This document shows, piece after piece, positions 45,159-47,490 of a stretch of 64,000 bases of DNA. The first letter of the stretch is position 1. Each line of letters starts with the position of its first letter. This stretch comes from Sporolactobacillus laevolacticus DSM 442 (lineage in GTDB: Bacteria; Bacillota; Bacilli; Bacillales; Sporolactobacillaceae). Location: NCBI RefSeq assembly GCF_000497245.1, contig NZ_AWTC01000009.1, positions 1 to 64,000 on the forward strand, read 5' to 3'. The notes beneath the pieces are model-generated. The model did not search any database. It worked only from the letters and a program-made list of their open reading frames with translations, and had not been told where the DNA came from. Position numbers and translations under genes: made by a program.

Positions 45159-45190
45159 AAAAAAAGAGAACTCGTATGAGCTCTCTTTTT
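45159..45190 (-). terminator. attenuator terminator of the aromatic operon
   Basis: On the minus strand a 13-bp stem (AAAAAGAGAGCTC with GAGTTCTCTTTTT, one G-T pair) with an ATAC loop and an unbroken T tract, between the leader peptide and tyrA. Its 5' arm GAGCTCAT (45183-45176) can alternatively pair with ATGAGTTT (45227-45220), which starts at the last base of the leader stop codon. That eight-pair helix (two G-T) would prevent the terminator. Confidence 0.85.
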
Positions 45191-45226
45191 GGCATGTACA
45201 GATTGTATCGTCCGATAGGAAACTCA

Positions 45227-45325
45227 TTAGGGCTTGAAGTATTTTGTTGTATACAAAGAAGCCTGGAAATAATAATAGCCCCAGTTCGTAAAGCTTCTAA
45301 AGTATACAGCATACTTCTTATCCAA
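45227..45325 (-). CDS. Tyr/Phe-rich leader peptide of the aromatic amino acid operon
   Basis: 32 codons starting with TTG at 45325 and a near-perfect GAGGGGG ribosome site 8 nt upstream. Seven Tyr (residues 5, 8, 17, 18, 19, 25, 29), four Phe (9, 12, 20, 30) and one Trp (15) make 12 of 32 residues, including the run YYYF at 17-20 and KYF two codons from the end. A sigma-A promoter lies about 30 nt upstream, and a terminator with a competing antiterminator follows. This is the arrangement of a ribosome-mediated attenuator sensing charged tRNA-Tyr and tRNA-Phe. The assignment rests on sequence content and layout; no family match is claimed. Confidence 0.85.
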   Translation of the reverse strand: MDKKYAVYFRSFTNWGYYYFQASLYTTKYFKP

Positions 45326-45355
45326 TGGTCGTTCCCCCTCGATTAGTTAAAAACT

Positions 45356-45384
45356 ATTCTAGTTGTTGTGCCACATCCTGTCAA
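45356..45384 (-). promoter_or_regulatory. sigma-A promoter of the aromatic operon
   Basis: TTGACA (45384-45379), 17-bp spacer, TAGAAT (45361-45356). Transcription should start near 45349, leaving a 24-nt 5' leader before the TTG start codon. Confidence 0.88.
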
Positions 45385-45484: not shown

Positions 45485-45506
45485 AAATGTAAAATTTTAT
45501 AAAGTG

Positions 45507-45827
45507 ACACGCGATGAAGAGAAAAAGTAGGTGGCGAATCTTTTCACAGAGAGCTTCGATACGGTGAAAGAAGCAAAGAAATGCTATCCGAAAAATGGCC
45601 TTGGAGCGGCATACTGAGTTTTCGCAGGGACTCTGCTAGTCCATTCCCAGCACCGAATCAGCTAGGCTATGACGAGTAATGGTTCTCGTTATAAAAACCA
45701 CAGTATAAGAGCTATTGGAAGCTCCGTACTTGCAGAGACTAATGATGTGAATTATTAGTAAAATTAGGTGGTACCACGTGGATTATACCCTCGTCCTGAT
45801 GCAATTGCATTAGGACGGGGGTTTTTT
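45507..45827 (+). promoter_or_regulatory. T-box riboswitch of metS, predicted methionine specifier
   Basis: A ~320-nt leader. Stem I begins with GATGAAGAGAAAAAGTAGG, and its 3' side contains GAA-ATG-CT with ATG (45581-45583) as specifier codon for Met. The conserved T-box AGGTGGTACCACG is at 45766-45778. The terminator (ACCCTCGTCCT with AGGACGGGGGT, 45787-45821) ends in six T just before the metS ribosome site. Specifier choice fits the downstream enzyme. Confidence 0.92.
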
Positions 45828-45852
45828 GCTTTTATTAAAAGGAGGAATGATC

Positions 45853-47490
45853 ATGGCTGTTTTAATTGCGGGTGCATGGCCTTATGCTAATGGTGAGCTT
45901 CATCTGGGGCATTTGTCGAGTTTATTGCCGGGAGATATCTTAGCGAGATATTTTCGTCAGAAAGGGGAGGAGGTTCTGTACGTGTCGGGAAGCGACTGTA
46001 ATGGCACACCGATTTCGATTCGCGCTCGTCAAGAAGCTGTTTCAACTCAAATCATTGCAGATCGATACCATCGATCATTTAAGCGATGTTTCGATAAGCT
46101 GGGTTTTACTTTTGATTGCTACACAAGAACGGACACGCCGCTGCATCACGAAATCGTTCAACACCTTTTTCAAAAGCTTTATGATCACCAGTATATTTAT
46201 CATAAAAAGGTGAAGCAAACGTATTGTGAGTATTGCAGCCGATTTTTGCCGGACCGTTATGTAGAGGGGAAATGTCCGCATTGTGGTGCCAATGCCAGGG
46301 GGGATCAGTGCGAGCGTTGTTCAACAATTTTGGATCCGCTTGAATTAATTGATCGAAAATGCAAAATTTGCGGTAGAACACCAACAGAACGTGAAACAGA
46401 ACATCTTTACTTTTCACTGAGCCATTTTCAGGAAACATTGGAACAATACGAGGGAGATGCTGAAAAACAGCATGCCTGGCGGGAGAATGCGATAAATTTG
46501 ACGAAACGCTACCTCAAGGAAGGTCTTCAGGATCGCGCTGTGACACGTGATTTGCCTAATGGTGTCCCTGTGCCGATCAAAGGATTCGAGGATAAGAAAA
46601 TATATGTCTGGATTGAAGCGGTATCTGGTTATTATTCGGCATCAAAGCAGTGGCAAAAGCAAACGGGTAAGGATGTGTCCCGTTTTTGGAATGAGGATAC
46701 CGTTTCGTATTATGTTCAGGGCAAAGATAACATTCCTTTTCACACAATTATCTGGCCTGCTGTACTTCTTGGCAATGACATCCGGTCTCTCCCAACGCAT
46801 ATTGTATCGAATGAATACTTGACACTGGAAAAGAAAAAATTATCAACCAGCAAAAATTGGGCGGTTTGGGTACCCGATCTCATTGCACGTTATCATCCGG
46901 ACACAATTCGCTATTTCATGACCATCAATGCGCCGGAAACCCATGATGCCGATTTTTCCTGGCGTGAATTTATTAACAGCCACAACAGTGAATTACTAGG
47001 GGCCTATGGTAATTTTGTAAATCGAACATTGAAATTTATTGAAAAAATTGAGGGTTTTGTATCAAGTACGTCAATTGCTGATCAGGAGGTTCAGGACAAG
47101 ATAAACCTTTTGTATGCTGAAACAGGACGGCTGATCGAATCCGCCCATATTAAGAAAGCGCTGGAGAAAATTTTTGATTTTGTCCGTTATTGCAACAAAT
47201 ATTTTGATGTTCATGAACCATGGAAACTGCTTGAAGAAGATAAGGACACCTGTTGCCGTATTCTAAATACATGTCAGATTATGATTGCAAATCTAGCCCA
47301 GCTGCTGGCGCCTTTCCTTCCTTTCTCAAGCCAAGAGGTACAGAAAATGCTAGGATTAGGACACTTAACCTGGCAGCCCATTATCAGATTGGAAGCAAAA
47401 CCAGTGAGTGTGCACCCGTTATTCCAGAGAATTGAACGTTCCCAAATTGATGCGGAAATTGATCGATTATATAATGGGATAAGAAGGTAA
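45853..47490 (+). CDS. metG: methionyl-tRNA synthetase, atypical form
   Basis: 545 residues. Class I motifs: HIGH-like GELHLGHL near 15; four CxxC knuckles (CEYC, CPHC, CERC, CKIC) within about residues 123-180, i.e. the double zinc-binding insertion; and KKLSTSKN in place of KMSKS near 325. An anticodon-binding helical domain completes it; no C-terminal EMAP/Trbp111 tRNA-binding domain. The Bacillus housekeeping MetRS usually carries that C-terminal domain and a simpler knuckle, so this may be a divergent or second, acquired type like the MetRS2 that resists MetRS inhibitors. AGGAGG lies 7 nt before ATG 45853. Under Met T-box control. Confidence 0.9.

Follow-up and report, generated by a model that had tools for sequence, protein, structure and literature searches.

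A candidate Tyr/Phe leader-peptide attenuator ahead of a clostridial-type aromatic amino acid operon in Sporolactobacillus laevolacticus

The window analyzed here, the whole 64,000-nucleotide stretch of Sporolactobacillus laevolacticus DSM 442 DNA, carries the aromatic amino acid operon tyrA-aroA-aroC-pheA-aroK on its minus strand. The first gene, tyrA (45069-44206), encodes a prephenate dehydrogenase of 287 residues, clostridial in type, whose best NCBIfam models are those of prephenate dehydrogenase, all scoring below their cut-offs. Both aroA (44173-42893) and aroC (42900-41797) are named by models scoring above cut-off, TIGR01356 and TIGR00033, respectively. They are followed by pheA (41797-40664), a chorismate mutase-prephenate dehydratase gene with an NCBIfam prephenate dehydratase score of 217.4 bits against a cut-off of 219, and by aroK (40651-40070), for which shikimate kinase models are the best NCBIfam matches, below cut-off.

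A leader with the parts of a ribosome-mediated attenuator precedes tyrA on the same strand. Its promoter, TTGACA-17-TAGAAT (45384-45356), agrees with the consensus at 11 of 12 positions in a consensus scan, in line with the strong promoter named by the first-pass annotation; such a match is nevertheless weak taken alone, with three promoter-like sites in the leader's 1-kb region versus 2.6 expected. The remaining elements of that annotation were borne out as described. The Shine-Dalgarno (SD) site GAGGGGG (45340-45334; anti-SD duplex of −10.4 kcal/mol) is followed by a TTG-initiated frame of 32 codons (45325-45227), which also has clostridial homologues. Its product, LDKKYAVYFRSFTNWGYYYFQASLYTTKYFKP, contains seven Tyr, four Phe, and one Trp, so that 12 of 32 residues are aromatic. 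RNA folds place a hairpin within the aromatic codons (45298-45257; AGAAGC..CUGGGG / UUCCAG..GCUUCU). The intrinsic terminator (45190-45161), supported by sequence, folding, and family covariation, has a 13-bp stem (45190-45178 / 45173-45161), a loop of 4, a folding energy of −15.6 kcal/mol, and a T-run at its end; a simple terminator scan did not list this hairpin, which is evident from folding and inspection. Between frame and terminator, the segment AUGAGUUU (45227-45220), whose first base is also the final one of the leader stop codon and which is also picked out by the family model described below, can pair with GAGCUCAU (45183-45176), located within the 5′ arm and loop of the terminator. 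The resulting antiterminator helix is short, at 8 bp with two G-U pairs, and was seen by inspection and recovered by duplex folding.

Some of these features stand out within the window itself. When frames of 25-45 codons with any ATG, GTG, or TTG start were counted on both strands, three contained at least 11 aromatic residues and only the leader had a good SD, its duplex of −10.4 comparing with −0.1 and −3.3 for the other two. The 206-nt leader RNA folds with a z-score of −5.1 relative to 200 dinucleotide shuffles. By comparison, the antiterminator pairing is marginal taken alone (z −1.6, p 0.05 from 60 shuffles), and it is convincing because it is conserved rather than because of any single-window score. 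In sum, the leader has a predicted translatable frame with SD and start, codons for the end products, and a terminator ahead of the first gene, together with a conserved, mutually exclusive antiterminator in silico, for which some ribosome stall positions are less favorable than others.

Homologous leaders were found in Clostridia. A scan for SD, aromatic-rich frame, and terminator across the window and 81 tyrA loci returned the window, its own copy (L071), and six others, five of which sit ∼1.2 kb before a clostridial tyrA, that is, just before aroF. One 14-codon scan match, in L080, lies elsewhere than before aroF. Searches with aroF matched 8 of 10, 25 of 35, 166 of 225, and 66 of 73 genomes, and at most 30 loci were taken from each. 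An aromatic-rich leader with a terminator, defined by at least five aromatics in 16 residues, was present in 74 of 112 distinct aroF upstream regions and was not detected in the other 38; these regions include second aroF copies and Bacillales aroF, and the fraction is therefore not a per-genome rate. Under a criterion of at least six aromatics, such leaders were present in 23 of 40 further stretches, one of which (L279) overlaps a locus already in hand (L082). The common clostridial peptide is YFYFSWGYFYFSAGYF..KK. The window peptide YFRSFTNWGYYYFQASLY is 39-43% identical to three peptides of the YFRNWGYF[FY]NAGYL types and 19-43% identical to six others. Across 87 leaders, which were picked for aromatic richness, Phe (14.7%) and Tyr (11.6%) are the two most common residues.

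A covariance model built from 45 of 56 eligible clostridial leaders, with the window left out, ranks window positions 45304-45220 as its top match over both strands of the 64 kb (39.6 bits, E 3.8e-4), followed by a next match of 24.0 bits (E 0.22), these E-values being rough. Among 13 leader-bearing loci outside the training set, seven match at E ≤ 1, four of them at E ≤ 0.0023 (L280, L038, L159, and L148) and three weakly (L229, L051, and L227), and six are missed at that threshold (L056, L153, L154, L156, L271, and L091). One of these loci, L280, comes from a 2.2-Mb genome (G1190) of the host's class and another order; it has a leader-terminator-aroF-tyrA arrangement of clostridial type and scores 95.9 bits. 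Two other Bacilli with TyrA of clostridial type (L281 and L282) have no such leader in the stretches examined. Judged by sequence, the window leader is homologous to the leaders of clostridial aro operons.

The leaders of L056, L060, L153-L156, and L271 have quite different arm and terminator letters, such as GTTTGGCTGT:GCAGCCAAAC in L156, and the five of this group that were tried gave no match to the model. L271 comes from G164 and the others from the order of G471. This group may be a branch of the device that has diverged.

The antiterminator arm was examined across 98 leaders with a terminator, reduced to 87 non-redundant ones including the window. Compared with its own shuffles, the spacer between aromatic core and terminator pairs with the terminator 5′ arm and loop at a mean z of −1.85 (n = 87), with p ≤ 0.05 in 42 leaders, versus a mean z of 0.08 and one of 87 at p ≤ 0.05 for DNA ahead of the leader, and again a mean z of 0.08 for the leader core against the terminator arm. 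The overall p of 3e-21 cannot be read literally, because the leaders are related; these statistics ignore kinship, and the leaders were chosen for aromatic richness. The helices comprise 71 different letter pairs, for example CTGCTGAG:CTCAGCAG in L227, AGTGAGGTTT:GAATCTCACT in L035, and TGATGAGTTT:GGGCTCATCA in L202. A motif, (A/G)ATGAG, is present in the arm of 51 of the 87 leaders. Codon boundaries divide it as (A/G)AT-GAG in 36 and as ATG-AG in 10, and in three (the window, L203, and L263) it appears as TAA-TGA and supplies the leader's own stop; in two it follows the stop. Thus, the motif occurs in all three frames, which argues that RNA letters, rather than the peptide, have been kept.

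Alignment leads to a similar picture. On 47 rows, taken from 58 motif-bearing leaders and hence preselected for the arm motif, 86.9% of arm-helix cells are paired, versus 30-42% when the arm is slid. The first-pass annotation had looked to related genomes for compensatory changes in both RNA folds. Such changes are strong in the terminator, with 67 doubly changed cells and none of 500 shuffles as high. In the arm they are modest, because the arm is conserved: six cells are doubly changed, a number reached by 17 of 500 shuffles. In both cases they come from Clostridia rather than from close relatives of the host. By our own reading of the duplex test, several leaders with terminators (L147-L149 of f128, L091, L254, L258, and L261) have no convincing arm, the helices of L147 and L149 being 3 bp long. 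Visual inspection also raised an alternative antiterminator in which Tyr codons at about 45262-45247 would pair with the terminator 5′ arm; it was set aside, as the family test favors the later arm and the leader core as a whole pairs with the terminator arm no better than chance (z of 0.08).

These features suggest how the leader would work. When Tyr or Phe is short, a ribosome would stall on the aromatic codons and leave 45227-45220 free to pair with the emerging terminator 5′ arm, so that RNA polymerase would read through into tyrA-aroA-aroC-pheA-aroK. When both are plentiful, a ribosome reaching the stop codon would cover the arm, and the terminator would form. Without translation, the arm would pair back with the SD region, and termination would again result. 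Folding confined to RNA downstream of the ribosome and ending at the terminator loop is consistent with this scheme: the arm helix is predicted at 0.92-0.93 for stalls from D2 to K28, falls to 0.79 at Y29 and 0.20 at F30, and is 0 from K31 to the stop codon. In the absence of translation it is 0.07, with the arm sequestered by upstream RNA at 0.79, its partner in the fold of the leader RNA being the SD region. Of the 1120 aromatic codons in the 87 leaders, 984 are so far upstream of the arm that a ribosome stalled there would not occlude it.

The folding models also qualify the scheme. If pairing across the ribosome is allowed, the arm helix is predicted at 0.07-0.35 for stalls at Y8 and S11-Q21, including the Tyr17-Phe20 cluster, the densest in Tyr; among the computed results, this weighs most against the simple model. 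Outcomes of the same calculation vary among the 14 leaders modeled, with L033 staying at or below 0.20 at every stall. In full-length RNA at equilibrium the terminator is predicted at 0.96 at each of the eight window stalls reported, and antitermination would therefore be kinetic, chosen during RNA synthesis. In the window, stop codon and arm are in contact. Overlap between the arm and a ribosome positioned at the stop is expected in 33 of 87 leaders, so the release step must differ in the remainder. On balance, stalling, Tyr/Phe sensing, and readthrough are what we infer for this locus: the leader is very probably a ribosome-mediated transcription attenuator that senses charged tRNA-Tyr and tRNA-Phe and that the host received from a clostridial lineage along with the aro operon it heads. 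The regulatory assignment made by the first-pass annotation is thereby supported computationally, since the aromatic codons, the terminator, and the arm all recur in clostridial aro leaders.

The hairpin within the aromatic codons may be a further working part. Compared with synonymous shuffles, it has a mean z of −1.60 over the 87 leaders, 47 of which fall below −1.5, and a z of −1.5 in the window, where we equate the hairpin at 45298-45257 with the core hairpin seen in clostridial leaders. It is possible that it represents a pause or 1:2 hairpin, and by analogy the core hairpin may pause RNA polymerase. The NusG-type motif TTNTTT follows the core hairpin in 28 of 87 leaders, where synonymous shuffles predict 21.8 (z 1.8). 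A leader-peptide attenuator of Bacillus subtilis does require pausing (PMC6851288); the word TTNTTT is absent from the available text of that report.

The operon itself sets the host apart from its relatives. TyrA matches occur in 96 of 98 genomes of the host's order and family (host included), all but the host's own at 22-31% identity, and no match at E 1e-38 exists among the 25 other family genomes examined. Clostridial TyrA is closer, reaching 38% identity in a search where 53 of 398 genomes, one being the host, matched at E ≤ 1e-40 and up to 40% in one that matched 13 of 380 genomes at E ≤ 1e-58; the TyrA of L031 is 39% identical to that of the window. The label Clostridia here draws on same-phylum kinship, on L031 being an Oscillospiraceae MAG, and on the gene order familiar from clostridial aro operons. 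In the clostridial stretches that hold the respective gene, AroA is 37-46% and AroC 50-57% identical to the window proteins, versus 26-29% and 32-39% in the host's family, the 39% value coming from a stretch cut inside aroC. An AroC tree of 27 rows places the window, on a long end branch, in one group (100/100) with 15 clostridial rows and away from the 11 family rows. The host genome has one match to a native aroC query and one TyrA match, and both are genes of this operon, which argues that the operon is a xenolog, clostridial in type, standing in for the native genes.

Gene order is related but not identical. After the leader in clostridial L051 come aroF (DAHP synthase), tyrA, and aroB, with aroF and aroB named by NCBIfam models above cut-off. 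Most of 20 clostridial stretches have tyrA, a gap of ∼1 kb, and then aroA and aroC, to which pheA and aroK are often added; as exceptions, tyrA adjoins aroA in L087, L095 is arranged otherwise, and L089, L090, and L092 have tyrA without the other genes. The window operon is without aroF and aroB, which we read as a loss of two genes. Its leader directly precedes tyrA and does not occupy the position of the clostridial leaders directly before aroF-tyrA. The window is therefore called a homologue of the family by its leader and operon, not a member in identical context. In L031, where tyrA directly follows another gene, the scan for SD, frame, and terminator found no leader.

A search with the leader peptide in 26 genomes of the host's family, host included, gave a good match in the host only (E 2.2e-17). 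Four other matches had E of 0.13-0.99, two of which were judged to be chance on inspection (L072 from its DNA and ORF list, L075 from its ORF list). Likewise, the clostridial leader model gave nothing at E ≤ 1 in ten family-genome loci around the native tyrA. Conservation in close relatives, by which the first-pass annotation would have had its proposal judged, thus fails if taken literally: no leader was found in the 25 other family genomes, none of which has a close TyrA. Wholesale transfer of the operon accounts for this absence, and it is Clostridia that supply the comparative support. The device is not a Bacillales invention; its family is in Clostridia, and the leader switch and operon look borrowed from there. 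A plasmid collection gave no matches to 401 bases of the leader region.

Other readings of the leader have to be weighed against attenuation by a Tyr/Phe leader peptide. A T-box, or another leader that senses a ligand or protein, might control the terminator, with the short frame being incidental. The host genome offers some grounds for this idea, having 19 T-box matches, and a T-box of 87 bits lies on the opposite strand before metG. On the leader strand, however, neither the T-box (RF00230) nor any other Rfam family was found at gathering threshold or E ≤ 1, save for an unrelated sRNA at 18.9 bits against a gathering score of 80, and no T-box at gathering occurs in 10 clostridial aro stretches. 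Moreover, leaders from many families share the frame, SD, and aromatic codons, and the leader model finds the aromatic core of the window. We regard such control as very improbable. A reading in which translation matters but codon identity does not, the leader reporting general ribosome slowing as drug-sensing leaders do, could use the same alternative folds, and a B. subtilis leader is known to be triggered by drug-induced ribosome stalling (PMC6851288). We consider it highly unlikely, given that Phe and Tyr are the commonest leader residues and that the leaders precede enzymes of the Tyr/Phe pathway, although both arguments carry selection, the leaders having been chosen as aromatic-rich and sought near aroF or tyrA; in the less biased scan around tyrA, five of the six matches outside the window still fell just before aroF.

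It is also conceivable that the transferred leader is a relic in its new host, the operon being read through constitutively or transcribed from another promoter. The genes downstream of the leader in clostridial operons, aroF and aroB, are missing from the host operon, the start codon is TTG, the arm helix has only 8 bp, and the leader was found in none of the host's relatives searched. Yet none of the four elements (SD, frame, arm, and terminator) is disrupted in the window, and the arm still matches its terminator even though the distal arm and the lower part of the terminator stem depart from the clostridial consensus. Decay of this kind thus seems unlikely to us, and a working Tyr/Phe attenuator is the reading we prefer.

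The T-box before metG merits description in its own right. It lies on the plus strand at 45505-45801 (RF00230, 87.0 bits, E 1.2e-19) and was missed at the gathering threshold of 93. A terminator-like hairpin (45787-45822) follows it, ahead of metG (45826-47490). One intergenic region would thus hold, back to back, a T-box and a leader-peptide attenuator, two modes of sensing charged tRNA.

It is useful to compare the window leader with known attenuators. In the enteric trp, phe, and his leader-peptide attenuators, codons for the end product, alternative antiterminator and terminator folds, and termination once the ribosome reaches the stop codon are combined. The window leader resembles these systems in having product codons in its frame and alternative antiterminator and terminator structures, and it would likewise terminate transcription with the ribosome at the stop; unlike them, it would sense two amino acids together. 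Rfam leader families gave no match at E ≤ 1 to the window leader or to four clostridial loci tried. Panina et al. in 2003 reportedly dealt with aromatic regulation in low-GC Gram-positive bacteria. In the literature searched, with most subscription journals outside its scope, no description of Tyr/Phe leaders of clostridial aro operons was recognized.

The first-pass suggestion that the device may be undescribed should be read beside uORFC-13-1 and beside the leader peptides for His and Leu/Ile already known in Bacillota. As far as the available text of its report goes, uORFC-13-1 is the closest description in print that we found, with 24 examples from Acholeplasma and environmental DNA before aroF (PMC8632094). 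It shares that position, a promoter, an RBS, a short frame with one or more Phe codons, an adjoining terminator, and a proposed Phe-dependent attenuation with the leaders studied here (PMC8632094). Compared by description, it has at least one Phe codon, whereas the window and clostridial leaders have many Tyr and Phe codons and a conserved arm, and its first gene is aroF, whereas that of the window is tyrA (PMC8632094). Leader-peptide attenuators for Leu/Ile and His do exist in Bacillota (PMC5794164, PMC2965389, PMC9413887, and PMC4833913): for ilv-leu in Staphylococcus aureus (PMC5794164), for hisS/hisZ in bacilli (PMC2965389), and for his operons in the B. cereus group, Peptostreptococcaceae, and Erysipelotrichales (PMC9413887). 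These are likewise ribosome-mediated, with product codons and an intrinsic terminator; they differ in their amino acids and genes, and the portions of these papers available describe no Tyr/Phe aro leaders. Finally, gbs2033 is a cis element acting by transcription attenuation that also occurs before Enterococcus faecium aroFBC-tyrA, but it is proposed to be a riboswitch for aromatic amino acids or their precursors and is set apart by that description; the term "leader peptide" does not occur in the available text of its report (PMC4448216).

Taken together, the kind of device is known, the clostridial Tyr/Phe family appears to be new, and the window leader appears, from its sequence, to be a transferred homologue. 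We hold it an even call that a large, undescribed family of dual Tyr/Phe attenuators governs clostridial aro operons, keeps its antiterminator letters independently of frame, uses a conserved RNA polymerase-pausing hairpin in the aromatic codons to let the ribosome keep up, and moves with the operon across classes, here displacing native aroC and tyrA. Bacillota sense amino acids for biosynthesis mostly through T-boxes and RNA-binding proteins, leader peptides being exceptional, and in B. subtilis transcription and translation are loosely coupled. The predominance of T-boxes and proteins is consistent with the available text of two of the reports above (PMC2965389 and PMC9413887). A widespread Tyr/Phe leader family heading the shikimate operon would change this picture of amino acid sensing in Bacillota. 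It would also offer a natural test of ribosome-dependent attenuation under loose transcription-translation coupling, and it would be an example of a regulator that crosses from one class to another along with its operon.
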